DNA of 64,000 nt from Butyrivibrio sp. (lineage in GTDB: Bacteria; Bacillota; Clostridia; Lachnospirales; Lachnospiraceae), in the NCBI GenBank assembly GCA_023664865.1, contig JAMPEU010000014.1, positions 1 through 64,000 on the forward strand, in the 5' to 3' direction. Positions 48,636-61,976 of this stretch are shown here, piece by piece (position 1 is the first letter of the stretch; every line of letters starts with the position of its first letter). The notes beneath the pieces are model-generated. The model was not told the origin of the DNA. It saw only the letters and a program-made list of their open reading frames with translations, and did not search any database. Made by a program: the position numbers and the translations under genes.

Positions 48636-49829
48636 CTATTTTCCGCTCTTACGATGAGATACTACATCGAAGATAACGGCAAGCAGCAGAACGCCGCCTT
48701 TTACGACATACTGCCACGAATCACCGATACCCATGATAGACATGCCCATATTGATAACGCCAAGTAAGAGCGCGCCGATGATAACGCCGGGAATCGTACC
48801 GCTGCCGCCGTATGCAGACGCGCCGCCGATAAAGCAGGCGCCGATGGCGTCCATTTCAAAAGAACTGCCGGTAGCTCCGTTCACTGAACCTATCCTTGCC
48901 AGACAGAGCAGACCGCATAAACCGGCGAGAAACCCCATACTTGCATAGGCTATAAAATAAACTTTATTCGTATTAATACCGGAAAGCTGCGCCGCTTTCT
49001 CATTACCGCCTACCGCATAGAAATAACGTCCGAATGCAGTTTTAGAAGTAATAAAGTGATAAATCAGGCAAATCGCCACAACCCATACAAGCATAACGGA
49101 AATGCCTTTATACTGGCAGAGTAAATAACAATAAAACAACAAAGCCACGGAAATAACTGCGCTTCGCCCAAAATCAGCAAATGCGCTGTTTTGCCTATAG
49201 CCTTTTTTTGCCTTATTTTTACGGGAAGAAATTGTGCTGTAGAAAATAAAGGCAGCCGCCAATGCGCCGATTATAAGCGGAGATAAAATACGTGCATCCG
49301 TATCCAGTAGGGGAATTTTAATATAGGCAGTAAAAATATTTAAAAATTCCGTATCCTGAACGGCTACCGTCTTACCATCCAGTATCAGACGGCCAAAACC
49401 ACGGAAGATAAACATACCGCCGAGCGTAGTAATAAAGGGTGGGATACGCACATAGCCGATTAAATACCCCTGCCATACGCCGGCTAAAAGGCCTACAAGG
49501 ATACAGAGCGGGATTGCCAGAAAAATGCCAACACCGTGGTTGGTAATTAAAACTGCGGCAATACCGCCGACCATACAGATAACCGAGCCGACGGAAAGGT
49601 CAATGTTGCCGCCGGTTAAGATACAAAGCAGCATACCGCACGCCATAACTAATACATAACCATTTTGAATAAGCAGATTGGACATATTCTGCGCATATAA
49701 AAGCCGTCCGCCCGTCAGGAAATAGAATAAAATAAATACAATGACAAGGGCGATAACCATGCTGTTTTTTGTTAAAAATGCTCCCACGTTAGATTGGCTT
49801 ACGTCCATATTTTCTTTGTCAGTTGACAT
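48636..49829 (-). CDS. mmsB: Monosaccharide ABC transporter permease (MmsB/GguB type)
   Basis: A 397-residue permease with about ten hydrophobic segments. Family marks are QNGYVLVMACGMLLCILTGGNIDLSVGSVICMVG, IPPFITTLGGMFIFRGFGRLILDG and the coupling region AVGGNEKAAQLSGINTNKVYFIAYASMGFLAGLCGLL, then GASAYGGSGTIPGVIIGALLLGVINMGM. It is longer than the usual 320-residue RbsC type, which is typical of the XylH/GguB/MmsB group. It is the last gene of the three-gene sugar transporter and probably of the whole 48.6-61.9 kb cluster. Confidence 0.9.
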   Translation of the reverse strand: MSTDKENMDVSQSNVGAFLTKNSMVIALVIVFILFYFLTGGRLLYAQNMSNLLIQNGYVLVMACGMLLCILTGGNIDLSVGSVICMVGGIAAVLITNHGVGIFLAIPLCILVGLLAGVWQGYLIGYVRIPPFITTLGGMFIFRGFGRLILDGKTVAVQDTEFLNIFTAYIKIPLLDTDARILSPLIIGALAAAFIFYSTISSRKNKAKKGYRQNSAFADFGRSAVISVALLFYCYLLCQYKGISVMLVWVVAICLIYHFITSKTAFGRYFYAVGGNEKAAQLSGINTNKVYFIAYASMGFLAGLCGLLCLARIGSVNGATGSSFEMDAIGACFIGGASAYGGSGTIPGVIIGALLLGVINMGMSIMGIGDSWQYVVKGGVLLLAVIFDVVSHRKSGK

Positions 49830-49849
49830 TATAATAAGTCTCCTCTCAA

Positions 49850-51385
49850 TTAAACCTTAGCGTTTACGATGTAACTCATGATTTTTTCCTGTGTAGCGCC
49901 TTTAGCATTAAGTTCCCCGCAAAGTTCCCCTTCATTCATAATATAGATGCGGTCACACATACCGATTAATTCCGGCATTTCAGAGGAAATCATAATTACT
50001 GCCTTACCGTCTTCTACCATTTTATTAATCAGGCAGTAAATATCATATTTGGCGCCGACATCAATACCGCGGGTTGGTTCGTCCAAAATCAAAATATCCG
50101 GCTCCGTAAACAGCCACTTGCCAAGCAGCGCCTTTTGCTGATTGCCGCCTGATAAGTTACCGGCCTTCTGTTCGATTGACTGTGTTTTTGTCCCCATCGC
50201 CTCTGTCATATTTTCCGCGGCGTTCTGCTCGGCAGTCGTGTCAATAATGCCTTTCGAGCAGACCTTATTCAAGTTCGCAAGCGTTGTGTTGAAACGGACA
50301 GATTGAGCAAGAATGAGTCCATTGGCTTTTCTGTCTTCTGTTACATAGGCTAATTTATGTGAAATTGCCTGCTGCGGATTTTTCAAATCAACCTTTTTGC
50401 CGTCCAGATATAACTCGCCTGTGATATTGCTGCCATAGCTCTTGCCGAAAATCGACATGGCAAGCTCTGTACGTCCTGCGCCCTGTAAGCCAAAGAAACC
50501 TACGACTTCACCTTTATGCACTTTAAAAGAAATATTTTTAACGGCAATTTTTTCATGATAAAGCGGGTGGTGAACTGTCCAGTCCTTCACTTCAAATCCG
50601 ATTTCTTTACATATTTTATGCTCACGCTTCGGATAGCGGTCGTCCATCGGACGTCCTACCATTCCTTTTATAATGCGGTCTTCGCTAAATTCGTCAACGC
50701 CCTTTACAAGGGTTTCAATACAGGCGCCGTCCCGTATAATGGTTGCCTTATCTGCGCAATAAATAATTTCATTTAATTTATGGGTAATAATAATGGAAGT
50801 CAGTCCGTTTTTCTTAAATTCCATTAATAAATCCAGAAGCCTTTCAGCATCTTCGTCGTTCAGTGAAGAAGTCGGTTCATCTAAAATCAGCAGTTTTACA
50901 TTTTTGGAAAATGCCTTTGCAATTTCTACAAGCTGCTGCTTACCTGTACCTATATCTTTGATTAAAGTCTGTGCGGAGTCGTTTAACCCGACCTGGCGCA
51001 TATGCTTTTCCGCTTCGTTATAAGTTAAGTCCCAGTCTATAATTCCAAGTTTATTCTTTTTCTCATTTCCTAAAAACATATTCTCGCCAATTGTAAGAAG
51101 CGGAATTAGGGCAAGCTCCTGATGAATAATGACAATGCCTTTTGCCTCGCTGTCCCTAAGCGTCTTAAAGCAGCATAATTCTCCATTATAATATATTTCT
51201 CCCATATAAGAGCCATACGGATAAGTACCCGACAACACATTCATCAGCGTAGATTTTCCTGCGCCATTTTCACCGATTAAGGCGTGGATTTCACCCCGCT
51301 CCACGCTCATACTTACATTATCCAGCGCTTTTACCCCCGAAAACTCTTTGGTAATAGATTTCATTTCCAAAATAATGTCAGCCAA
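49850..51385 (-). CDS. mmsA: Monosaccharide ABC transporter ATP-binding protein (two ATPase domains)
   Basis: A 511-residue tandem ATPase. The first domain has GENGAGKSTLMNVLSG, a signature region GTGKQQLVEIAKAF and LLILDEPTSSLND. The second has a degenerate Walker A (GLQGAGRTELAMSIFG), with LSGGNQQKALLGKWL and ILILDEPTRGIDVGAKYDIY, as in MglA/XylG/GguA. I start at TTG 51385: AGGAGG lies eight bases upstream, and the next codons (ADIILEMKSITKEFSGVKAL) begin the domain exactly. An ATG-initiated frame reaches further upstream but overlaps the end of the binding-protein gene. The spacing to that gene is 13 bp. Confidence 0.92.
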   Translation of the reverse strand: MADIILEMKSITKEFSGVKALDNVSMSVERGEIHALIGENGAGKSTLMNVLSGTYPYGSYMGEIYYNGELCCFKTLRDSEAKGIVIIHQELALIPLLTIGENMFLGNEKKNKLGIIDWDLTYNEAEKHMRQVGLNDSAQTLIKDIGTGKQQLVEIAKAFSKNVKLLILDEPTSSLNDEDAERLLDLLMEFKKNGLTSIIITHKLNEIIYCADKATIIRDGACIETLVKGVDEFSEDRIIKGMVGRPMDDRYPKREHKICKEIGFEVKDWTVHHPLYHEKIAVKNISFKVHKGEVVGFFGLQGAGRTELAMSIFGKSYGSNITGELYLDGKKVDLKNPQQAISHKLAYVTEDRKANGLILAQSVRFNTTLANLNKVCSKGIIDTTAEQNAAENMTEAMGTKTQSIEQKAGNLSGGNQQKALLGKWLFTEPDILILDEPTRGIDVGAKYDIYCLINKMVEDGKAVIMISSEMPELIGMCDRIYIMNEGELCGELNAKGATQEKIMSYIVNAKV

Positions 51386-51398
51386 AAGAAATCTCCTC

Positions 51399-52526
51399 CT
51401 AGTCGGTGGCGGACAGATATCCGTCGGCGCCCATTGTGTATAAACCTGTATCAACTAAATCCTGCAGATTATCCTTGGTAATTACATTCGGCACAAGCAG
51501 GAAAGAAGGACATTTGTGTCCTGCCGATGTTTCATAAGAGTCTGTGTCGTATGCACATTCAATTCCAAAAGTATCGATTAAAGCTGCGTCAATAGTATCG
51601 CCTGCAATAATGGTCTGCGCGAGAGCTAATGTAACAACCGCCTCATTGCTTACGTTCTTATACACAGTCATTGTCTGAATACCGTCAACGATATTTTTCA
51701 GGTTAGCCTCATCGCCGTCCTGACCTGTAATAAGTACAGAGTTAGAACCTGCATAGTCGGAGGTAACAGCCTGTGCAACGCCCAGTGCGGTAGAGTCGTT
51801 AGAGCAAACCCATATATCAAGCTGTGTTCCGTCCGCATAATAGGAAGAAAGCACGTTCTGCGCCCTTTCAAGAGCCGTATCGGTATTCCATTGCGCTGTA
51901 GCAACCGTATCAAAGTCCGTCTGTCCGGAAACAACATTTAAAGTCCCCTTGTCGATATAGGGTTTTAGCGTATCCATAGCGCCGTTATAGAAATATCCTG
52001 CGTTATTATCGGCAGGATCGCCTGCGGTAAATTCTATATTGTAGACTTTATTTCCCGCATTAGCAAGGTCGAGCGTATCTACAACGAATTGTCCCTGAAG
52101 TCTGCCAACCGTATAATTATCGAAAGATACATAATAGGAAACCGCATCGTTCAAAATCAGACGGTCGTAAGAGATAACCGGGACATCTGCCTGCGCAGCT
52201 TCATTCATGACGGTATTCAACGCCTCGCCGTCTATGGCGGCAACAATGAGTAAATCAACGCCGTCTGCAAGCATATTCTGGATATCATTTACCTGTCTTC
52301 CGGAATCATTGTCTGAGAAAGTAAGAATAGTTTCATAGCCTGCTGCCTTGAACTTGTCGTTAAGATATGCTCCGTCACGGTTCCAACGCTCCAGAGATTG
52401 TGTCGGCATGGAAATGCCGATTTTACCCGCACTGTCTGTCGTAGTACCGCCATTTAAACCACAGCCTGCCAATAAAGCGGCAGCCAAAATAAGACTTAAT
52501 AAAACGCTAAGTAATTTTCTTTTCAT
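51399..52526 (-). CDS. chvE: Monosaccharide-binding lipoprotein (ChvE/XylF type)
   Basis: A 375-residue lipoprotein. The signal ends in the lipobox L-A-G-C at residues 19-22. The mature protein has the periplasmic-binding-protein fold of the sugar group: IGISMPTQSLERWNRDGAYLNDKFKAAGYE, ADGVDLLIVAAIDGEALN, VPVISYDRLILNDAVSYYVSFDNYTVG and VLITGQDGDEANLKNI. The SYDRLI phrase is common to ChvE and XylF, which bind aldoses such as xylose, arabinose, galactose or glucose. It starts 22 bp below the SpoIIE-type phosphatase gene, so sugar uptake and that signalling protein are coupled. Confidence 0.9.
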   Translation of the reverse strand: MKRKLLSVLLSLILAAALLAGCGLNGGTTTDSAGKIGISMPTQSLERWNRDGAYLNDKFKAAGYETILTFSDNDSGRQVNDIQNMLADGVDLLIVAAIDGEALNTVMNEAAQADVPVISYDRLILNDAVSYYVSFDNYTVGRLQGQFVVDTLDLANAGNKVYNIEFTAGDPADNNAGYFYNGAMDTLKPYIDKGTLNVVSGQTDFDTVATAQWNTDTALERAQNVLSSYYADGTQLDIWVCSNDSTALGVAQAVTSDYAGSNSVLITGQDGDEANLKNIVDGIQTMTVYKNVSNEAVVTLALAQTIIAGDTIDAALIDTFGIECAYDTDSYETSAGHKCPSFLLVPNVITKDNLQDLVDTGLYTMGADGYLSATD

Positions 52527-52548
52527 TTTCTTTTAATCCTCGCAATCG

Positions 52549-54315
52549 TTATAGTTTTTTCGTAAGCTTTAAAACATTATGCCCGCCTTCATAAACATAC
52601 TCCACAGCATCCATAAAATTTTTTACAATATGAATACCCATACCGCCTTCCTCGCGGGAATTTTCCATCTCTGCCGCATCCGGAGCGGCTTTAACTGTCG
52701 GATCGAAAGGCTCGCCGTTATCCGTAAACGTAAGGCACACCTGACTTTCTTCCACATTGCATGACACTTCTGCGCTTTGCGCCTTGCTGTAACGTACAAT
52801 ATTGGAAAAAATCTCGTCCACAGCAATATTCAGCTTGATAATAATTTTGTGCGACACATGGTTTTTTTGCAAAACGTCTTCTACAAAAGAGGAAACCTCC
52901 GCCATGCTCTCCAGCGTGGGAGCGACCGTAACAGAGTTTATAAAAAGCAGCTTCAAATGAAGCATAGTCATATCGTCGAACTGCGGCGCGTCCCCCACAA
53001 ATCCATCTACATCTGCTTTCACGTCAGTACACAATTCCTTCGCAACTTTTCCCTTAGAGCAATTTAGTACCGTAAGAAGCCTTTCATTACCATACATCTG
53101 CTGCCTTGCATTAGTCGCTTCCGTAACCCCGTCCGTATACAGAAAAATTTCATCACCCGGCACAAAATCCGTCTCCCCTATGCGATAATGAAGATTGCCG
53201 AACTCTCCAAGTACAAAACCGGGTTTGAACTTCAAAAATGTAAATTCCCCGCCATTGTGACGAAGCAGAGGCGGATTGTGTCCTGCGTTCGCAAAAAAGA
53301 GCTTCCCTTCCTTTATATCCGCAATCCCCATAAAACAGGTTACAAACATTTCCGCATCATTATTCTCACATAGCTGGTTATTCACCTTTTCTAACGCCTT
53401 ATCAGGTGAAAGCCCCGCCTGTGCCGCGTTATTTAACAGATTTTTCGCCACCATCATAAACAGCGCAGCCGGAACTCCCTTGCCGGATACATCCGCTATC
53501 ACAATCGCAAGCCGCGTTTCGTCCACTAGAAAGAAATCATAAAAATCGCCGCCTACTTCCTTTGCCGGCGTCATTGACGCGTAAATATCAAACTCCTGCC
53601 GTTCCGGAAAAGCGGGGAAAATACAAGGCAGCATAGATGTCTGTATGCGGGTTGCCACATCAAGCTCTGCCGCTGCGCGCTGACGCTCCTCATTGTCCTT
53701 TGCCTGTTTCTCCAAAAGATTTCTCGTCCGTCCCGCAATCGTCATGCAGACCGCGTGCGCACCGATTAAAATCAAGGTTCTTGGAAGGACAAAAAACAGG
53801 GTGTTCTCCAATAAAAGCCTGCCCGTAATGACACGCTCGCCGGAATAATAAGGCGCATCTAAAAACGTCTGATCCCACTCTCCGAAGTACATAGCTATAT
53901 AGATTGAGGCAGAAAACAATACCACTGACAAAATCAGTACAAACCGCGTCAGCTTTTTGGAATAATAGTGACAGCTTAAAATAAGCGGCAGCATCCACGC
54001 AACCACCATATGCTTTGAAATTGCACAGGACAGTATGAATATTCCGGTAATCGAACAGCACATAACCGCATATTTTACCCATGCCCTATCCAACTTGCAA
54101 ATGAAAGCGGGAAGAATGGAAAATGCTAAAAATATGGGCATTGCCGTATTCATGATTACTTTGGGCGTGATAAAAATCCCGACCATATCCAAAATCCAGC
54201 ACAATATGGCAACCAATGAAACTATTCCGATACATCTGGCAGCATACCGGTTCGCTTCCCACTCATTCTCAAGGAACAGATTGTAATCAGCCTGCTGCCC
54301 TGCATGCTTCTCCAT
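52549..54315 (-). CDS. Membrane SpoIIE-type phosphatase fused to an RsbW-like ATPase domain
   Basis: A 588-residue protein. Residues about 30-200 hold five or six membrane segments. A coiled-coil linker (LLEKQAKDNEERQRAAAELDVATRIQTSMLPCIFP) leads to a PP2C/SpoIIE phosphatase domain (about 235-450). Its metal motifs include AKEVGGDFYDFF, VIADVSGKGVPAALFMM, FANAGHNPPLL and LYTDGVTEATN. Residues about 460-588 are an HATPase_c_2 domain of the anti-sigma kinase type with intact motifs: N-box LNIAVDEIFSNIVRYS, G1 FTDNGEPFDP and G2 EEGGMGIHIVKN. Phosphatase and kinase of one partner-switching relay are thus in one chain. The STAS gene ends 24 bp upstream and is the probable substrate. Confidence 0.9.
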   Translation of the reverse strand: MEKHAGQQADYNLFLENEWEANRYAARCIGIVSLVAILCWILDMVGIFITPKVIMNTAMPIFLAFSILPAFICKLDRAWVKYAVMCCSITGIFILSCAISKHMVVAWMLPLILSCHYYSKKLTRFVLILSVVLFSASIYIAMYFGEWDQTFLDAPYYSGERVITGRLLLENTLFFVLPRTLILIGAHAVCMTIAGRTRNLLEKQAKDNEERQRAAAELDVATRIQTSMLPCIFPAFPERQEFDIYASMTPAKEVGGDFYDFFLVDETRLAIVIADVSGKGVPAALFMMVAKNLLNNAAQAGLSPDKALEKVNNQLCENNDAEMFVTCFMGIADIKEGKLFFANAGHNPPLLRHNGGEFTFLKFKPGFVLGEFGNLHYRIGETDFVPGDEIFLYTDGVTEATNARQQMYGNERLLTVLNCSKGKVAKELCTDVKADVDGFVGDAPQFDDMTMLHLKLLFINSVTVAPTLESMAEVSSFVEDVLQKNHVSHKIIIKLNIAVDEIFSNIVRYSKAQSAEVSCNVEESQVCLTFTDNGEPFDPTVKAAPDAAEMENSREEGGMGIHIVKNFMDAVEYVYEGGHNVLKLTKKL

Positions 54316-54339
54316 AATTTTATCTTCCTCCCGCCGCCA

Positions 54340-54639
54340 TCACAGCTCAATCGTCAGTATGTCAAAGGAGCCTGTCACCTCGAATACTTCCAGCACATCT
54401 TCATTTGCGCCCCTGATTACCATTTCCCCCTGCCTATCCATTGCCTTCTGCGCAGAAAATATTACGCGGAGTCCTGCGGAAGAAATGTACTCTAACTCTG
54501 AAAAATCCATAATCAGCTTTTTCACGCCTTCAAGTGATTTCTTTAATTCCGCATCCAGTTCGGGAGCCGTTGTCGTGTCAAGCCTTCCCACAGTCTTAAT
54601 GGTCATTTCATTTCCGGCAGTCGTTGTTGTAATCGTCAT
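54340..54639 (-). CDS. STAS-domain anti-sigma factor antagonist
   Basis: A 99-residue SpoIIAA/RsbV-like protein: EMTIKTVGRLDTTTAPELDAELKKSLEGVKKLIMDFSELEYISSAGLRVIFSAQKAM. Ser54 in ISSAGL aligns with the serine phosphorylated in RsbV. The start at 54639 has GGAGG eight bases upstream; an ATG five codons earlier overlaps that site. It lies between the nucleotidase-like gene and the phosphatase/ATPase fusion. The likely cycle is phosphorylation by the RsbW-like domain and dephosphorylation by the SpoIIE domain. Its further target is not evident. Confidence 0.93.
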   Translation of the reverse strand: MTITTTTAGNEMTIKTVGRLDTTTAPELDAELKKSLEGVKKLIMDFSELEYISSAGLRVIFSAQKAMDRQGEMVIRGANEDVLEVFEVTGSFDILTIEL

Positions 54640-54656
54640 TTTCTTTTCCTCCATTT

Positions 54657-56345
54657 TTACTTTTCGGATAACACTTTAATGCGTCCCTGTTCTTTTCTAT
54701 ATTCGTCCCCGATTGTTCCGCCTAAATGCTCCTTTATGTATGTGCTTAAAACCTGATAGTCTGACATTCCCTCGTCAATTATGAGCTGGTTATCCGTGAA
54801 CATATTCAAGCCGTCCCCGCCTTCCTTTAACAGATAGTTGTGAGACGCCACTTTATACATCTTATCAGGCTCGATTGCCTGATAGCTTCCGTCTTCTCCA
54901 AGCACTTCCACATCTTTTACGCGCCGTTCTCCCTCCACAGATACAAACATGCCGTTTTCGTCTGTTATAACGGAGGACTCTACCGATAAATCAACGGTGA
55001 AGCGCAGTCCCGACACCTGCTGAAAGCCGCCGTTTTCTCCAATGGCGTTTCCCGCCTCTGAAACCTCAGCCATCATCTGTGAACATGACATTTCCAGACA
55101 ATCCAATATCTCCTGTCCGCTTGCCCATACCATGCAAAGCGTATTCCCATACGGGTGTACCGCAATTATGTCTCCATAAGTGATATCGCCTGCCTCAATA
55201 TCCGCCCTGATACCGCCGCCATTGATAAAGGCAATGTCCGCCCCGGCAACCTCCCTGTACGCATCTGTGCAGAAATCTCCCAGATTTGTTTCCCTGCTGC
55301 GAACAAGCCGCACGCCATCTGAACCCGCAATCGTCAATGCCACGCTGCTGCTGCTGCCTATTATCTCGTTAAGCGTAGCTTCATAGCGTAACTGAATATC
55401 TTCCACGCAGGAAGCCATTTCATCATCTTCTTTGGGATATCCCATAATCAAAGTGGACACCATTTGCCCTTTAGGCGTAATCATAAGCTGTCCGATTGCG
55501 CCAAACTTTTCTCCTGTAGAAGATAAAAGCACTAACTCTCCTTCCTTGTTTTTAACATATTCACAGGGAATTGTGCTATGGGAATGTCCGTCCAGCACGG
55601 CATCCACGCCCGTAGTCCCCATAATCAAATCAACCGAGCGGAAGGGTTCTGAGACCTCGTCCGTTCCCAGATGAGTAAGTAAAACCACATAATCTGCGCC
55701 TTCTTTTAAGCAGTCGTCAATGCTTTCCTGCACCGTGGCATAAAATGACTCTTCATCTTCTGCACTAAATCCATATACATACTCACCGTTCTCGTCCATA
55801 AATACAGACGGCGTAGAAGAAAGGATACTTTCCGGCGTAGACACCCCGATAAATGCTACTTCCACATTCCCATATTTCTGAATAGCATAAGGTTTTACTG
55901 CGGAAAGCTTATTTTCCCCGGTCCCGGAATAAGTGATATTGCAGCCAAGATACTCTGCATCTGACAATTCCAGCAATCTGGCAAGCTGATCCATGCCATA
56001 GTCAAACTCATGGTTGCCAAGCACCGCATAGTCGTAGCCGACCTTATTCATAAGCTCCACGGGATATTCCCCGTCCGACACGGTGCCGAGGGCATCTCCC
56101 TGAATGGCGTCGCCGCAATCCACCAGCGTAACGTAAGGCGAATTCGCCTCAAGAAATTCGCTGTAAGCCGTAAGCTTAGCATACCCCATATTCCCGTCCA
56201 CTGCACAATGGACGTCATTGGTATAAAGGATATAGATATTACTGTCTCCTTCGTTCCGTACACTGCCAAAAAAAGCTGACAGCCCGACTGCCAATAGAAT
56301 GGCCGCACATATGCACAGTATCGTAAGTTTCTTTTTTTTGCTCAT
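54657..56345 (-). CDS. Membrane-anchored 5'-nucleotidase/metallophosphatase (UshA-like)
   Basis: A 562-residue protein. One N-terminal hydrophobic helix (KLTILCICAAILLAVGLSAFF) exports or anchors it. The metallophosphatase domain has IYILYTNDVHCAV, VDCGDAIQGDALG, AVLGNHEFDYGMDQL and LDGHSHSTI. The C-terminal 5'-nucleotidase domain has INGGGIRADIEAGDITYGDIIAVHPYGNTL and KEGGDGLNMF. UshA-type enzymes dephosphorylate extracellular nucleotides or sugar nucleotides. I start at MSKKKK (56345) behind AAGGAG. It lies 28 bp below the ABC fusion gene and 17 bp above the STAS gene. Confidence 0.92.
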   Translation of the reverse strand: MSKKKKLTILCICAAILLAVGLSAFFGSVRNEGDSNIYILYTNDVHCAVDGNMGYAKLTAYSEFLEANSPYVTLVDCGDAIQGDALGTVSDGEYPVELMNKVGYDYAVLGNHEFDYGMDQLARLLELSDAEYLGCNITYSGTGENKLSAVKPYAIQKYGNVEVAFIGVSTPESILSSTPSVFMDENGEYVYGFSAEDEESFYATVQESIDDCLKEGADYVVLLTHLGTDEVSEPFRSVDLIMGTTGVDAVLDGHSHSTIPCEYVKNKEGELVLLSSTGEKFGAIGQLMITPKGQMVSTLIMGYPKEDDEMASCVEDIQLRYEATLNEIIGSSSSVALTIAGSDGVRLVRSRETNLGDFCTDAYREVAGADIAFINGGGIRADIEAGDITYGDIIAVHPYGNTLCMVWASGQEILDCLEMSCSQMMAEVSEAGNAIGENGGFQQVSGLRFTVDLSVESSVITDENGMFVSVEGERRVKDVEVLGEDGSYQAIEPDKMYKVASHNYLLKEGGDGLNMFTDNQLIIDEGMSDYQVLSTYIKEHLGGTIGDEYRKEQGRIKVLSEK

Positions 56346-56373
56346 CTTCCGTCTCCTTTGACACATTTGTATT

Positions 56374-59109
56374 CTACAAAGAAATCTCTAAGCGGTTCTT
56401 GCCCCTCTCGTATCCATAACGGCTTTCCCTGATTACAGATTTTACCAGCTTAATGGAAATCTCGTCGCCGCTTTCTAAGGGATTGTACGGTGCGCCGCCC
56501 CAGACAAAGCTCATAGTCAGCGCGCCGTCCGCCTCGTAATACTGTACGGATATCTCCAGCATATAATTCCCTTTCCGGTTCGGAATGATATTAAGCGCAC
56601 AAACCTCTTCAAACACACGCCTTAAGTTTTCCGTCTGCCGCTGGCTCAAGAACTGCTTTTCCCCAAAGTTCCTTAACTGCTCGCTCATGGCGATAAAATC
56701 ATATTCAGGAGAGGAAATTGTAAACGTTAATGCCTTCAAGCGCTTCACAAAAGCCCTCGTCTGCTCCCGTTTAGGGGAATCAAAAATTTCCTCCGGCGTG
56801 CCTTCCTCGTATATTTCACCCTGATCCATATAAAAAATCCGCGTGCTGACGTCCCTTGCAAACTGCATTTCATGGGTAACAATCATCATGGTAAGCCCGC
56901 CTGCCGCCAGTTGTCTGATAACGGAGAGAACTTCGCCTACCATCGTCGGATCTAACGCGCTCGTCGGCTCGTCAAACAGCACAATTTCCGGTCTCATGGC
57001 AAGCGTCCTTGCAATAGCCACCCTCTGCTTCTGCCCGCCGGAAAGCTCGTCCGGATAAGAAAGGGCTTTCTCCGCCAGTCCTACCGTTTTGAGCAAGTAC
57101 ATTCCGTATTCATACGCTTCCTGCCGTCCCTCGCCCTTTAAGAGCGTCGGCGCCAGCATGATATTCTCAATGACGGTCAGATGTGGGAAAAGGTTAAAGC
57201 TCTGGAATACCATGCCCATCCGCTCTCTTACAGCGTTCAGGTTCGTTTCCTTTTTCCCCATGTCCTCGCCGAATACGCAAACCTTACCGCCCGTCGGCTC
57301 TTCGAGCCGGTTCAGGCAGCGCAGGAAGGTGGACTTTCCCGTGCCGGATGGACCGATAATGGTAATGACCTCTCCCCGCTTAATCTGCGCATTTACATCT
57401 TTTAACGGCGTTGCGCCTATAAATTCCTTCTTTAAATGCTCTACCGTAATCAGCTCAGACGCCTCATACGACGCGGTTTCCTCTTTTTCCACATATACTG
57501 ACATCACATCTACGCCTTTAGGGTACGCCCTCGGCTTCCGTTTCACGTCAAGCTTAAGCTCAACCCTTCCAATTAAGAAGGCAAAAATTACAGAAATCAA
57601 AAAATATATCGCAGCAGTCGCAAGCAGCGGGAAAAACGCCTCATAGGTACGGCTGCGGATAATATCCCCCGCCTTCGTCAAATCCTCAATCGAAATATAT
57701 CCCACGATAGAAGTCAGCTTCAACATGGTGACAAACTCACCCCTGTAAATAGGAAGAACGCTCCTTACCGCCTGCGGCAGAATAATACGGATAAAAGTTT
57801 TACCCCTGCTAAAACCAAGCGCCGTAGCCGCCTCCCATTGCCCTGCATCTACCGTCTCTATGCCGGTATTCAAAATCCCCGCGACTGCCACTGCAAAAAT
57901 CAGGGAAAAAGAGATAACCCCGACCGTCACAGGCTCAATCTTAACCGAGGCAAACACTACAAAATAAATAATCATCAGCACGACAAGGCTTGGGATACCC
58001 TCCATCAGCCTGCATATCACCCTTGCAAGCCCCGCAAGGAAACGGTTCTTACAGCGCAGCCACAGACAGAGCAAGAATCCCAGAACCGTCCCGAAAATTC
58101 CGGCAAGCACAGTAATCTCAAGCGTAACTAAAAGCCCGTCCACAATCAGCTTCCAGCGGTTTTCACGCACGAAAGTCTTTTCAAAGCTCTGAGCTATTCC
58201 TGCAAAAATGCCCATTCCAGCACTCGCGCCCGTCTCCGCGGCAATTGACGCCGAAGGGCTGTTTAAATCAAGCGTCTCTGATACTCCCTCTAAACTTTCG
58301 GTTCTGCATAAAAAAACCGTGCCGCCCGAATAATAAGACTCACAGAAATCCACGCTCTCGGCGCGTTCCGCAGTGACAATGATACAGCATGCCGCAATAT
58401 CCGCCTTATCCTGCTGTATAAACGGAACGAGCGAGGCAAATTTCGTTTCAATCAGTTCCACGCCCATATCAAGCCTGTCCGCAATTATAAGCACAAGCTC
58501 CGTCTCAAAGCCGGACGGATTGCCGTCGCTTCCTATGTACAACATCGGCATATTCGTTCCGTCAAAGGCGAAGCGCAGCGTCCCATTCGCGCGTTCGGAT
58601 AAGTTATACTGCGTCCAGTCAATCTGCATGGCTTCTTCGTCGCCGTTTAGCCATTTTTCCGCCAGCTTGTCAATGACTCCCTCTGACTTAATCTCACGGA
58701 TAACGCCGGATACCTTATCAGTCAGCGCACTCCCCTTTTTCAACATCATGCTATACGCATCACTTGATATAATCTCCGGAAACATTGCAAACTCATCCGG
58801 TCTTTGTGCAGCAGCCATCTGCGCCACCGGACTGTCTAAGGCGAGCGCCTCCACATCACCTTTTTTCAAAGCCTCAAGCTGCGTCGTAAGGTCGTCATAG
58901 TAATTGTAGTTAAGGCCTTCAAACTTATCTCCCAACACCTGGTCATAGAGCGAACCCGTAAGAACGCCGATAGTTTTCCCGCTAAAATCTGAGAACGACC
59001 GATAAACCTCTGTTTCCTTTTCACTGCCGGCACAGCCTGTAAATGCCATGACAACAAACAGCATAAGCCCGATTAGCCATGCCGCCTTCTTCATTCTTTT
59101 TTGTCTCAT
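56374..59109 (-). CDS. ABC transporter fusion: permuted binding domain, permease, ATPase and degenerate RsbW-like tail
   Basis: A 911-residue lipoprotein-like fusion (lipobox T-G-C, Cys26). Residues 38-155 match the second lobe and end of a family-3 amino-acid-binding protein ([36 protein letters not shown]). Residues 175-270 match its first lobe ([43 protein letters not shown]). The order is therefore swapped. Residues 320-530 are a HisM/GlnP permease with the EAA loop at 424-447. Residues 552-790 are a GlnQ-type ATPase: Walker [10 protein letters not shown] at 586, LSGGQ at 689, Walker B LFDEP. Residues 795-911 resemble an RsbW-type HATPase, but the DxGxPF loop reads [10 protein letters not shown] and the second glycine loop is missing. 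It should import a polar amino acid and signal to the STAS relay downstream; signalling is inferred. Confidence 0.88.
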
Positions 59110-59124
59110 TTTCCCTATAACCTC

Positions 59125-61128
59125 CTATATCCTGAACACCCTCATTCTCTCCATCAGTTTCTTTGCTTCCCGCTCTAATTCCTTCGCGTTACGGGCTACA
59201 ATATCACTGTCCTGAGTTACCGTTTCGGTATAACCTTCCAGTTCCTGCGCCGACTGAGTAATCCGCTCCATTTCCTGCACTTGATAATCAGCGATTTTGT
59301 GCATATTTCCTGCAACTTCTTCTGTCCTTCCGACCAATTGCACCATGCGCTCCACCGCAGTATCCGTCTCTCCCACCTTTTCGTACACCATATCAAAAGT
59401 TTCCCTGTTCGCACCGACCAGCTCCGCGCTTGTCTTTACCTCCACAACACTTTCCTTCGTCTTGGCAATGGCGCGCTGCATAGCCTCCTTAATCTCCGAC
59501 GTCAATCTGGAAATATCATCTGCCGCGTCACCGCTATTTGCTGCAAGTTTTCCAATCTGGTCCGCTACAACCGCAAATCCTTTTCCTGCCTCACCCGCAC
59601 GTGCCGCCTCAATAGAAGCATTTAAAGACAGAAGATTCGTTTCCTCCGCAACATTGACAATCATCTCCACCATACTGCCAATCTGCTCCATCGCAGTATC
59701 CGTCTTCATCATCTGCTCCGCAAGGGAAGATATGCTTTCTTCAATATGGCGCATACTTTCGCTGACACGCTCCGCCGCTTCTCTTCCGTTCACCGAGATA
59801 TCCACCGTCTGACGCATAACTAAACCTGCGCGCCTGCCCTCTGAGTCCGCCTCTTTGATAACTTCGGAAAGCATCTCCATCTGTTCGGATACTCCCCTAG
59901 CCGCTTCAGACAGTTCTTTTACAATCTGTCCAAGAGCTTCCATTGCTTCCGACTGGCTTTTAGAAGAACCGGTCAGTGAGCCTGACACATGGCCATTCTC
60001 CACCGACTGACGCTCCAGCCATTGCGCGATACCGATAATATCGGATATCGTCGTGCGCATCTGTGTCAAAAATTCCTGCATATGCGCACTCATAACAGCA
60101 ATCTCATCTTTTCCTTTAACTTCAACCGTCTGTGAAAAATCACCTTGCGCTACATTCTGTATGACATCTGTAATGCGCCCTACCGGTTTTACAACGCGGT
60201 TCATCAAGTTAAATGTCGCAAAAATCAGCACTGCCGCAGCAGCCGCAGCAATCACTATCATAATTATCTCCAGCCGATGTAATCCCGCAAGTGCCTCGCT
60301 TCTGGACATATAGCTGACTAAAACCCAATCCGTCCCGTCAATTTCATTCAAACATACAAAATAACCCTGCACAGAAAAGAAATCATCTGCACCGGCTTTC
60401 TGATTTCCAATTTCCTTCCCGATAGCTGCATACAATTCATTCAAGTCCGAATCAGAAAGCGTGCGCGCTATCATATCGGTATTCGGATGCGCAATAATCG
60501 TCCGGCTTTCCTTTGTCACTAAGAACGAGCTGATTCCGCCGCTTCCCTCAATATTCGATACAACCTCAGAAAGATAATTCAGATATACGTCTACGGCAAG
60601 TACCCTGACTGCATCAGTATTTCCCATGCGCACAGCAGCGCTGACGCAGATATCGCCTGTCTGTGAATCGTAATACGGCTCCCCAAAAGCAATCTCCTCA
60701 TTTTCCTTTCCGTCAAGATACCAATCCCGTTCCGTCAAAACCCAGTCGTCACCCGGCACCCAACCTGACGCATCTAAATACACTCCCCGGTCATCACCCA
60801 TATACAATCCCACCGGATAAGCATCACTCTTTTCAAAAGAAGTCTCCATAAATGCAAGCACCTCTTCATCGTTAGCAAATCCGCCTTCTTCAATCGTATC
60901 CTTATAGACCTGAAGCTCGCCAAAAATCCGATCTGTCCATGCGTAAATATCACCTGCACAGACTTTTGCATTAGCGGCAAGATTCTGCTCTGAAATACTT
61001 GTAATCATTTTTCGTGAAAGTCCGAAAAACGTTATAATAATAACCAGCACAATAGGAATAATGACCACGATTAATTTTGTACGGATTCCAAACGTTATGA
61101 TTTTCTTCTGCCCATCTTTATTGTCCAT
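59125..61128 (-). CDS. Methyl-accepting chemotaxis protein with dCache sensor
   Basis: A 667-residue receptor. The first membrane helix is [18 protein letters not shown]; a large extracellular double-Cache domain (about 40-285) includes [34 protein letters not shown] and [21 protein letters not shown], typical of amino-acid sensors. A second helix ([19 protein letters not shown]), HAMP and a signalling coiled coil follow, with tip [34 protein letters not shown]. It ends without the CheR-tether pentapeptide. It lies 15 bp above the ABC fusion and 14 bp below the response regulator. The pairing suggests it senses what the transporter imports. No che gene is present. Confidence 0.92.
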
Positions 61129-61142
61129 GAATTTTTATCTCC

Positions 61143-61844
61143 TTATCGTTTCTCAAATACCTTATCAAACAAGGTTTCCCGATATCTTTTTCTAACCTCA
61201 TCATAGTAGCGTCTGGATATCGGTATTCTCTCTCCTGCAATTATCAGATCCGTACCATCCATTCCTTCCACATGGTTTAAGTTGACGATAAAACTCTGAT
61301 GACACCGCATGAGGATTTCCCCGCACACCTGCTTCTCCAAATCACTCAGCTTTCCCGCGCTTTCCTTCATACTCCCGTCCATACAATATATAGACAGCGT
61401 ATGTCCCCTGCTGCTGATATAACGAATTTTTCCATAGGGAACTGAACCGACCTTCCCGCGCCATGAGTATGAAAGCTTCTTCCCGCCGTCACAATCAAGG
61501 TTTTTCTGCACCTTCAGAAGAAGTTTATTCAAAGCTTCCTCCTGTACAGGCTTAATCAGATATTGTATGGCATATAAATCATAGGCCTCCCTGTAAAATT
61601 CATTACTGCTGGAAATAAAGCAGATGACCGCTTCTTCATTGACTTCCCTAAGTCGTTTAGCAAGTTCAATCCCGTCCATAGAGTCACCCATAAAAATATC
61701 CAGCAGGTATAAATCATATGGTGCCTTGCCCATGTCTGACAAAAGGCTGTCCGCACCGGAATACACATTAACCTCATGCCCCGACAGGCATTTTTTAAGA
61801 AACAACGCATCTTCCGCACAGTCGTCGCAGACCGCTATCCGCAT
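61143..61844 (-). CDS. LytTR-family response regulator
   Basis: A 233-residue regulator. The receiver has acidic C-D-D near the N-terminus, phospho-acceptor D49 in LYLLDIFM, the switch region CFISSSNEF and LIKPV with the conserved lysine. The LytTR DNA-binding domain (about 130-225) has VPYGKIRYISSRGHTLSIYC, RCHQSFIVNLNHVEGM and RIPISRRYYDEV. It heads the cluster. No histidine kinase gene is next to it, which is unusual for LytTR regulators. A direct repeat of the LytTR kind lies at 61943-61976 before its own promoter, suggesting positive self-control. Confidence 0.93.
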   Translation of the reverse strand: MRIAVCDDCAEDALFLKKCLSGHEVNVYSGADSLLSDMGKAPYDLYLLDIFMGDSMDGIELAKRLREVNEEAVICFISSSNEFYREAYDLYAIQYLIKPVQEEALNKLLLKVQKNLDCDGGKKLSYSWRGKVGSVPYGKIRYISSRGHTLSIYCMDGSMKESAGKLSDLEKQVCGEILMRCHQSFIVNLNHVEGMDGTDLIIAGERIPISRRYYDEVRKRYRETLFDKVFEKR

Positions 61845-61914
61845 AGGTATCCCTCCTTCGCACAGACTACAAACACCAAAATTTATTAATAAGCATAGTT
61901 ATCTACAATAATTC

Positions 61915-61976
61915 ATTATAGTATGATTCCTTCTTTTACGTTATGTTAATTTTGTTTCCAATCATGTTAATTTTGT
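61915..61976 (-). promoter_or_regulatory. -10 box with upstream direct repeat, likely LytTR-activated promoter
   Basis: On the minus strand a perfect TATAAT lies at 61920-61915, with no good -35 box 17 bp upstream. ACAAAATTAACAT occurs twice in direct orientation (61976-61964 and 61955-61943), 21 bp apart, covering about -68 to -56 and -47 to -35. LytTR regulators such as AgrA bind two direct repeats with this spacing next to a weak -35. The repeat and spacing are observed; which protein binds is inferred. Confidence 0.7.

Follow-up and report, generated by a model that had tools for sequence, protein, structure and literature searches.

In the window, by which we mean the whole 64,000-nucleotide stretch of a Butyrivibrio sp. 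contig analysed here, an amino-acid-type ABC importer ends in what is predicted to be a degenerate copy of a partner-switching kinase domain, and its gene lies in one cluster with those for a phosphatase, a kinase, and a STAS protein. Our reading, to which we assign a probability of about 60%, is that the products of this putative operon form a partner-switching relay acting on the transporter, the pseudokinase being the dock for the STAS protein. Sigma factors are the chief known output of partner switching. If our reading is true, transporters carry the receiving half of the switch, and solute uptake and efflux become direct phosphorylation-controlled outputs.

The gene cluster and its partner-switching proteins

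Nine ORFs separated by gaps of 2–24 bp occupy the minus strand from 48636 to 61844, which confirms the tight spacing of nine minus-strand genes described in the first-pass annotation. In the order of transcription, they encode a response regulator with receiver and LytTR DNA-binding domains (61143..61844; PF00072, PF04397), a dCache-HAMP-MCP chemoreceptor (59125..61128; PF02743, PF00672, PF00015), an ABC fusion of solute-binding protein (SBP), permease, and ATPase, a 5'-nucleotidase-like enzyme (54657..56366) with an N-terminal membrane segment judged by eye, a STAS protein (54340..54654), a membrane-SpoIIE-HATPase_c_2 protein (52549..54315), a ChvE-like sugar-binding lipoprotein (51399..52526; 85% identity to L129:2-964 of a relative discussed below), a GguA-like double ATPase (49850..51385), and a GguB-like sugar permease (48636..49829). 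ChvE, GguA, and GguB are the nearest names for the last three proteins, yet all fall under the NCBIfam equivalog cut-offs. The successive gaps are 14, 15, 7, 2, 24, 22, 13, and 20 bp, where the 13 bp value presumes that the sugar ATPase starts at a likely TTG at 51385 behind AGGAGGAG; the longest frame would instead give an overlap of 56 bp.

Upstream of the operon, two identical 13-bp direct repeats (61943-61955 and 61964-61976, minus strand) lie 21 bp apart from start to start, a spacing like that typical of LytTR sites, and they form a possible LytTR-binding site. The last base of the pair, 61976, is where the first-pass annotation had placed the end of the cluster. The repeats are overlapped by two promoter-like matches, whose first hexamers run from 61970 and from 61949, but such matches are not clearly above chance in number (24 against 25.2 expected), and the same is true of terminator-like matches (18 against 13.0 expected, sd 4.0). 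No Rfam element reached the gathering threshold between 48000 and 62500.

The STAS protein is of the anti-anti-sigma type (TIGR00377 above cut-off) and has a phosphorylatable Ser in its ISSAGLR loop, which we take to be the position of the acceptor. In the SpoIIE-type protein, a membrane region is followed by a PP2C phosphatase domain (PF07228, E 4.3e-54) with the metal-binding motifs ADVSGKG and YTDG, and by an RsbW-type kinase domain (residues 463-588; PF13581 at 83.1 bits, the cut-off being 27.4) whose ATP motifs DEIFSN, DNG, and GGMG are present in alignments. Judged by these motifs, the catalytic or acceptor sites of the phosphatase, the kinase, and the STAS protein are intact. A Pfam scan of the nine cluster proteins and SecG revealed neither a sigma factor nor CheA, and nor did a scan of 8 flanking proteins, so that the earlier remark that none is encoded nearby holds for this set, and a sigma-factor output via a neighbouring gene was rejected for the proteins scanned. 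The tail of the ABC fusion is the candidate for the third partner of the switch. As regards the chemoreceptor, five CheW-domain matches are located on other contigs of the genome, two of these belonging to ORFs 723 and 739 aa long, and the MCP could thus be served in trans.

The RsbW-like module on ABC, MATE, and SDF transporters

The ABC fusion, on the minus strand, consists of a solute-binding part and permease (residues 1-550, 57460..59109), a GlnQ/ArtP-type ATPase in which the Walker A, LSGGQ, Walker B, and H-loop motifs are kept in the alignment (residues 551-791, 56737..57459), and a degenerate RsbW/SpoIIAB-type, HATPase_c_2-like module (residues 790-911, 56377..56742). With SBP_bac_3, BPD_transp_1, and a GlnQ-type ATPase having all its motifs, it has the make-up of a GlnPQ-type amino-acid importer; the top PDB match of the ATPase is ArtP (E 3.9e-86). 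No Pfam family, PF13581 included, matches the last ~110 residues of the window's fusion, and PF13581 matches only 6 of 22 ABC tails at E <= 0.1 (best 6.3e-6). When the 22 tails were aligned by hhalign with five RsbW-type domains from relatives and the window, the probability was 97.7 (E 1.8e-12). The AlphaFold model of the window tail (pLDDT 91.6, pTM 0.85) retrieved by Foldseek, at PDB ranks 1-22, SpoIIAB, RsbW, mycobacterial anti-SigF, Rv1364c, or SiaB entries exclusively (best E 3.2e-6), and 20 of these 22 are, by title, complexes with a STAS-type partner or a sigma factor. As modelled, then, the window tail, which the first-pass annotation had mentioned without identifying it, has the GHKL fold of the SpoIIAB/RsbW type. 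Another known ABC C-terminal regulatory domain was considered for the tail and rejected, there being no such match among these PDB entries.

The ATP site of the ABC modules is largely lost. In 17 comparison kinases, which were picked by HMM score and are hence biased towards intact motifs, the N-box Asn and the G1 Asp are present in 17/17 and the G2 GG pair in 16/17; the corresponding values for 43 ABC modules are 5/43, 0/43, and 0/43, with the third G2 glycine in 10/43. The median ATP lid is 16 residues long in the kinases and 5 in the ABC modules, which retain the N-box Glu (43/43) and the G1 glycine (40/43). The window's tail likewise has the N-box Glu but is without the Asn, the Asp, the G2 glycines, and most of the lid, so that we class it as a pseudokinase-like relative and not as a kinase.

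The same module is found in relatives at the C-terminal end of GlnQ-type ATPases, at the C-terminal end of MATE transporters, and at the N-terminal end of SDF symporters. Our survey comprises at least 112 module genes: 43 ABC (including the window and the split frame L126), 36 MATE (37 before a gene present twice, L038/L294, was counted once), and 33 SDF, among them 6 long proteins that the module HMM did not match at E <= 1e-3 and that were included by length and alignment. These are lower bounds, since in many genomes the profile searches assessed no more than 11 candidates. In hhalign against the kinases, the MATE modules gave a probability of 99.0 and the SDF modules 98.1. PF13581 is above cut-off in both MATE proteins of one scan and below it in the MATE protein of L125. 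For the SDF module of L129, the first 12 PDB matches belong to the SpoIIAB/RsbW-type kinase class, in this case from a model of only moderate quality (pLDDT 70.3) whose alignment was built together with ABC tails. The 36 MATE modules are less degraded (Asn in 18/36, G1 Asp in 22/36, one G2 glycine in 29/36), and this partial retention suggests that some of them may still bind ATP.

Genomic neighbourhoods and the proposed switch

GlnQ-type ATPases with the module lie within 10 kb of a SpoIIE or STAS gene in 7 of 22 cases, as compared with 1 of 54 paralogues in these genomes that lack it (Fisher 5.1e-4, or 1.5e-3 if the window is left out). This comparison uses SpoIIE matches of at least 80 bits, all STAS matches including the SulP type, and 76 ATPase rows of at least 180 bits; the 22 include G224:C11, whose module is weak (18.2 bits) and which has no STAS/SpoIIE neighbours, and four other long control frames were checked and have no module. 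Likewise, 11 of 40 long MATE frames and 0 of 41 short ones of the same genomes are within 6 kb of STAS/SpoIIE (1.9e-4), where "long" means at least 560 aa by length alone and 4 of 85 rows of other lengths were left out. Two distances were tried per enrichment test, and the module-less controls cover ABC and MATE, that is, two of the three superfamilies. In 50 of 54 neighbour pairs (a module gene and a STAS/SpoIIE gene within 9 kb), both genes are on the same strand; the nearby STAS domains have the acceptor Ser in 28/28 cases (by eye), and the nearby phosphatases a DVSGKG-type motif in 22/23, the remaining one being a fragment. No STAS/SpoIIE gene was found within 9 kb of 75 of the 112 module genes (33/43 ABC, 14/36 MATE, 28/33 SDF), of which 15 ABC, 2 MATE, and 13 SDF genes are flanked in each direction by 8.5 kb of sequence or more. 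Many module genes would therefore need a switch in trans.

Three tight loci illustrate the association, with the module-bearing genes in brackets: STAS-SpoIIE-SBP/permease-[ABC]-kinase in L043, [SDF]-STAS-[MATE]-SpoIIE-kinase in L240, and [MATE]-STAS-kinase-[MATE] in L290. On the other hand, the first-pass annotation had made conservation of the gene order in relatives a check on its cluster, and here the outcome was negative, as the nine-gene order is absent from L129, G060, and the other loci examined. In L129, the closest relative among the matches listed, the STAS, ABC fusion, and nucleotidase genes are together, no SpoIIE gene was found in 21 kb of sequence, and the sugar-binding protein is encoded ~6.7 kb off on the opposite strand. 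In G060 (L029), the only other genome of the same genus with the fusion among the matches listed, 19 kb contain no STAS, SpoIIE, or kinase gene, and G370, the third genome of this genus searched, gave no match to the tail profile. A conserved nine-gene unit is thus ruled out for the relatives examined, where the unit is split up (L129) or the fusion stands alone (G060), and LytTR, MCP, and sugar transporter are outside the recurrent core. A contig scan was dominated by generic ABC motifs and for this reason yielded few named relatives: among its best 80 loci, three have the module (L129, L130, and L131), and one of the other 77 (L203, Streptomyces) has STAS matches nearby.

The genes for the nucleotidase and the ABC fusion are direct neighbours in L129 and L126, and in L031 they are one gene apart. 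More generally, nucleotide or purine genes recur near the module, such as those for a nucleotidase (window, L129, L031, and L126), adenine deaminase (L033), a xanthine/uracil-type permease (L031), and a nucleoside phosphorylase domain (L032).

In the mechanism that we propose, the membrane SpoIIE-type phosphatase would sense a signal and dephosphorylate the STAS protein, which the RsbW-type kinase domain fused to the phosphatase would re-phosphorylate. Unphosphorylated STAS would leave the kinase and dock on the degenerate RsbW-type module that terminates the importer ATPase, and docked STAS would set the activity of the ABC importer, up or down. We infer the binding of STAS to the module, its block by phosphorylation, and its effect on transport. 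The earlier suggestion that the output is transporter activity and not transcription gains indirect support from the degenerate RsbW-type tail and from the presence of the module on three transporter superfamilies, with enrichment near STAS/SpoIIE. In a broader form, to which we would give even odds, dead anti-sigma kinase copies carried by three or more unrelated superfamilies of transporters (ABC, MATE, and SDF) are STAS docks, and SpoIIE/RsbW switches gate transport directly, without a sigma factor, as a general modular control that this bacterial family shares with its relatives.

The flow could also run in reverse, with the transporter as the sensor: the module would sense the transport cycle and hold or release STAS, solute flux would set STAS phosphorylation, and the output would be a distant sigma factor, a c-di-GMP enzyme, or another target. 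Some transporters are known to act as sensors too, the operon includes signalling genes (MCP and LytTR), and further partner-switching genes of the genome (SpoIIE-type at C92 and C111, STAS at C103 and C92) make a shared STAS pool possible. Nevertheless, we consider this unlikely, if worth keeping in mind. At some loci, the SpoIIE proteins have sensor regions of their own (dCache-HAMP in L043 and L240), so that an extra sensor is not needed; a module common to three unrelated transporter classes fits a common output better; and no sigma factor occurs among the scanned neighbours in the window.

It seems improbable to us that the module is a leftover domain now serving, without STAS, in ATPase dimerisation, protein stabilisation, or nucleotide or metabolite binding, and that its STAS/SpoIIE neighbours are incidental. 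RsbW-type domains dimerise by themselves, and such reuse would agree with the 75 of 112 module genes that have no STAS/SpoIIE neighbour within 9 kb, with the half of MATE modules that keep part of the ATP site, and with the recurrent nucleotide or purine genes; against it speak the enrichment over module-less paralogues of the same genomes in two transporter families, the same-strand linkage (50/54 pairs), and STAS being the natural ligand of the module's fold. Finally, a sigma factor is the usual end point of partner switching, and the window could hold a partner-switching trio for a distant one, placed by accident between two ABC transporters, as the lack of a conserved nine-gene order in the relatives examined might suggest. 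Such an accident is very improbable, given the RsbW-type module on the importer itself and the repetition of the association at independent loci.

Comparison with known systems

There are precedents for partner switching without a sigma factor (SiaABCD) and for an ABC ATPase controlled by a STAS protein (MlaB); we found no report of an RsbW-like domain fused to a transporter in the open-licence PMC literature, as judged from titles and abstract starts. With the RsbU/RsbW/RsbV and SpoIIE/SpoIIAB/SpoIIAA switches of Bacillus, the window shares a PP2C phosphatase, a HATPase_c_2 kinase, and a STAS protein with an acceptor Ser, all with intact motifs, and the predicted fold of its transporter module is that of RsbW/SpoIIAB. 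The window differs from them in that phosphatase and kinase are one protein, that no sigma factor is among the scanned neighbours, and that the would-be target bears an apparently dead copy of the kinase domain.

According to the available excerpts of PMC8457831 and PMC7647112, SiaABCD of Pseudomonas directs partner switching onto a diguanylate cyclase, and SiaC phosphorylated by SiaB cannot bind SiaD. The likeness is that an enzyme, not a sigma factor, is the output; the differences are the cyclase target, the DUF1987 nature of SiaC, and the RsbW-like domain, which those excerpts do not mention. BtrU/BtrV/BtrW of Bordetella are a partner-switching trio tied to the control of a secretion machine by a mechanism that the part of PMC7498569 consulted calls unknown; nor does that part describe the machine as bearing an RsbW-like domain. 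In the Mla ABC transporter of E. coli, a phosphomimetic at the phospho-site of MlaB weakens its binding to MlaF, and the portion of PMC7367683 used here states that there was at that date no experimental evidence for phosphorylation of MlaB Thr52. There, STAS touches the helical subdomain and the C-terminal extension of the ATPase directly, and not an RsbW-like domain; in the window, STAS and the ABC ATPase are related by genetic linkage, and their complex is putative. The abstract of that paper raises the possibility that similar regulation is broader among ABC transporters (PMC7367683). Because a single cluster of the window encodes a phosphatase, a kinase, a STAS protein, and an ABC ATPase next to one another, phospho-control of ABC transporters becomes testable in a small reconstituted system. 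In SulP/SLC26 anion transporters, STAS domains are linked to transport (PMC8256260, in part); the STAS domain is there within the transporter, whereas in the window it is the kinase-like half that is within the transporter.

The tail of the ABC fusion

The ABC fusion is 911 aa long, and its ATPase is of the GlnQ/ArtP type (top PDB match ArtP, E 3.9e-86), followed by ~110 residues that matched no Pfam family. By sequence search, 20 of the 299 same-family genomes covered have this tail, and in most of them it ends a free-standing ATPase of ~360 aa with an SBP-permease gene adjoining. The tails align end to end with RsbW-type domains from some of the same loci, and a profile-profile comparison of 22 tails with five kinases gave a probability of 97.7 (E 1.8e-12). 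Six of these 22 tails matched PF13581 (HATPase_c_2) unaided with E values of 0.1 or below, the strongest at 6.3e-6; the window's own tail had no match in this search. The AlphaFold model of the window tail, for which the input was four sequences only, has a pLDDT of 91.6 and a pTM of 0.85. When this model was compared with the PDB using Foldseek, ranks 1-22 were all in entries of SpoIIAB, RsbW, mycobacterial anti-SigF, Rv1364c (RsbU-RsbW), and SiaB, 20 of which are, judged by title, complexes with a STAS-type partner or a sigma factor.

Motifs were counted after aligning 17 kinases together with 112 transporter modules. The N-box Asn and the G1 Asp are each present in 17/17 kinases and the G2 GG pair in 16/17, this set being biased toward intact copies by its choice on HMM score, whereas the ABC modules have them in 5/43, 0/43, and 0/43, respectively. 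The median ATP lid is 16 residues in the kinases versus five in the ABC modules. All 43 ABC modules retain the N-box Glu and 40 the G1 glycine; with the ATP site otherwise lost, a retained Glu would fit a domain that serves protein contact. In the window, the SpoIIE-fused kinase domain has its ATP motifs, the phosphatase has its ADVSGKG and YTDG motifs, and the STAS protein has its acceptor Ser. Because these motifs are intact here and lost in the tail, the cluster appears to encode a complete writer (kinase), eraser (phosphatase), and carrier (STAS), and the importer's tail is, judging from its motifs, a dead copy of the writer.

Related modules on other transporters

Matches to the tail profile in frames of ~570-620 aa were, where fetched, MATE transporters with a C-terminal module. 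HATPase_c_2 scored 34.9 and 38.7 bits in two scanned MATE proteins, above the Pfam cut-off of 27.4, and this architecture is already visible with Pfam; one further scanned protein, from locus L125, gave only a MatE match in Pfam. Of the loci found, the one most like the window's, L129 (JAMPCN010000017.1, from a MAG recorded as 'Bacillus sp.'), adds a third transporter superfamily: it has a sodium:dicarboxylate symporter (SDF) with an N-terminal module, followed by STAS, ABC fusion, and nucleotidase genes. Related symporters fall into two size classes, ~410-480 aa without and ~520-620 aa with an N-terminal extension, and the long form occurs in at least 22 of 299 genomes. Module HMMs match 27 of the 33 fetched long proteins at E <= 1e-3, the other six being counted on length and alignment only. 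The model of the L129 symporter module, made from an alignment with ABC tails, has a less sure fold (pLDDT 70.3), and its PDB ranks 1-12 are anti-SigF, RsbW, and SpoIIAB. By hhalign, the ABC, MATE, and SDF modules match the kinases with probabilities of 98.4, 99.0, and 98.1, and one another with 98.4-99.2. The MATE modules are half-way in motif loss (Asn 18/36, Asp 22/36, GG pair 0/36, third G2 glycine 29/36), and the SDF modules have the Glu in 29/33, the Asn in 3/33, and the Asp in 0/33.

ABC-type modules were found in at least 25 of 397 same-family genomes, window included, and, among 398 genomes drawn across the phylum, in five other families. A GlnQ-like ATPase at L305:965-2047 (genome G224, contig C11) bears a very divergent module (18.2 bits) that the profile searches missed, so the module family is probably larger than counted. 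Several single cases deserve mention. An SDF symporter from a genome of another family (L122:1151-2773) has an N-terminal domain scoring 93 bits with the kinase HMM, versus 19-41 bits for the other matching SDF proteins, and is possibly an intermediate. An unfused, free-standing module of 135 aa (L046:9583-9990) lies not far from genes for an ABC-type ATPase and DNA polymerase I. At L123:8693-9768 (genome G411), the module match falls past the end of the ATPase frame (9400), which looks like a gene split by a frame change.

Neighbourhoods of the module genes

The window is contig C55 in an assembly of 3.8 Mb (180 contigs, 96.6% complete, 5.1% contaminated). It does contain the nine-gene minus-strand run described in the first-pass annotation. 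This run extends from 61844 down to 48636 with spacings of 14, 15, 7, 2, 24, 22, 13, and 20 bp, and the gene names given in the annotation agree with Pfam and NCBIfam; the sugar transporter is a ChvE/GguA/GguB-like one, with scores under the NCBIfam equivalog cut-offs. The idea of the whole cluster as one kept unit did not hold in the relatives seen; the LytTR, MCP, and sugar transporter genes lie outside the recurrent core. LytTR-type genes also occur near the module loci L038, L124, L125, and L031. Upstream of the window's LytTR gene, a 13-bp sequence is directly repeated without change at 61943-61976, the two copies starting 21 bp from each other, a spacing that would suit a putative LytTR dimer site. 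In the solute-binding part of the fusion (58183-59109), the second half of the SBP_bac_3 domain (residues 95-155 against profile 97-131, weak and below cut-off) seems to precede the first (profile 1-94). The same order is seen in L129, which has an additional stretch of ~230 aa, and in L130 and L131, and these may be circularly permuted binding proteins. Nucleotide or purine genes recur across the module loci: a nucleotidase in the window, L129, L031, and L126, an adenine deaminase in L033, a xanthine/uracil-type permease in L031, and a nucleoside phosphorylase domain in L032.

In the fetched loci, 8/43 ABC, 19/36 MATE, and 5/33 SDF module genes have STAS or SpoIIE no more than 5 kb away; at 9 kb the counts are 10/43, 22/36, and 5/33. 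A module gene and its neighbour share a strand in 50 of the 54 pairs at up to 9 kb. Module-less paralogues from the same genomes served as controls for the ABC and MATE classes. Among GlnQ-like ATPases of 18 genomes, SpoIIE or STAS was within 10 kb of 7/22 with the module versus 1/54 without (Fisher 5.1e-4; window excluded, 1.5e-3), and within 6 kb of 4/22 versus 0/54 (p 0.0057; window excluded, 0.020), the divergent ATPase of G224:C11 being counted as module-bearing and taken out of the control set. In the single control counted, the neighbouring STAS match falls in a frame of 564 aa, about as long as a SulP transporter. For MATE proteins of 14 genomes, the counts were 11/40 long versus 0/41 short frames at 6 kb (1.9e-4) and 15/40 versus 2/41 at 10 kb (2.8e-4). 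Tight loci read, with the module-bearing transporters marked by a prime, STAS-SpoIIE(dCache)-SBP/permease-ABC'-kinase (L043), STAS-SpoIIE/kinase-SBP/permease-ABC' (L107), SDF'-STAS-MATE'-SpoIIE(dCache)-kinase (L240), STAS-SpoIIE/kinase-SDF' (L250), and MATE'-STAS-kinase-MATE' (L290).

Against linkage, 33/43 ABC, 14/36 MATE, and 28/33 SDF module genes have no STAS or SpoIIE neighbour within 9 kb, and for 15, 2, and 13 of these both flanks were covered for 8.5 kb or more. The 19 kb retrieved from a same-genus genome (G060) contain the fusion and no switch genes, the profile search gave no tail match in a third member of the genus (G370), and none of the three SpoIIE-family matches in the L129 genome lies in the 21-kb locus itself. 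All 20 genomes with the tail by sequence search have SpoIIE and STAS genes somewhere, which is weak support because spore-formers carry both anyway.

Other neighbours were also seen. STAS domains are fused ahead of APH-type kinases, and in one case a TCAD9 domain, near module-bearing transporters (L048:17277-18452, L250:10543-11733, L284:8047-9246, L121:3575-5941), perhaps a further output of the same switches. A recurrent MATE'-GH3-SpoIIE cluster (L125:6412-12944, L124, L038, L268), which in some cases also has ATPgrasp_ST and STAS, has the look of a small locus for biosynthesis and export controlled by partner switching. The window's genome has a second partner-switching locus (L052; contig C92, 4502-13382) with MCP, LytTR regulator, SpoIIE, kinase, and STAS genes, and the genes flagged there include no MATE, SDF, or module-bearing ABC gene.

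A proposed partner switch acting on transport

The partner-switching biochemistry of RsbU/RsbW/RsbV and SpoIIE/SpoIIAB/SpoIIAA is established. Most likely, the window cluster works through a similar cycle: in the SpoIIE-kinase protein, the phosphatase half would take the phosphate off STAS under the control of the membrane region and the kinase half would put it back, as the intact motifs and that biochemistry suggest. From the fold and the linkage, we infer that unphosphorylated STAS would shift from the kinase onto the importer's dead kinase domain, and that STAS docked there would alter the ATPase or its coupling. The main rival to STAS acting on the importer is a reversed flow, with the transporter as the sensor.

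The module-bearing sequences themselves are not new; the reading of them is, as far as our searches of the open-licence PMC literature show, in which we found no report of a transporter fused to an RsbW-like domain. SiaABCD is an established case of partner switching whose output is not a sigma factor (PMC8457831, PMC7647112), and MlaB-MlaF one of STAS control of an ABC ATPase (PMC7367683, PMC5016091); in PMC7367683, a phosphomimetic at the phospho-site lowers binding, and phosphorylation itself is not demonstrated. The window system would join the non-sigma switching of the SiaABCD type with STAS/ABC control of the MlaB-MlaF type, the RsbW-derived dock being the added new element.
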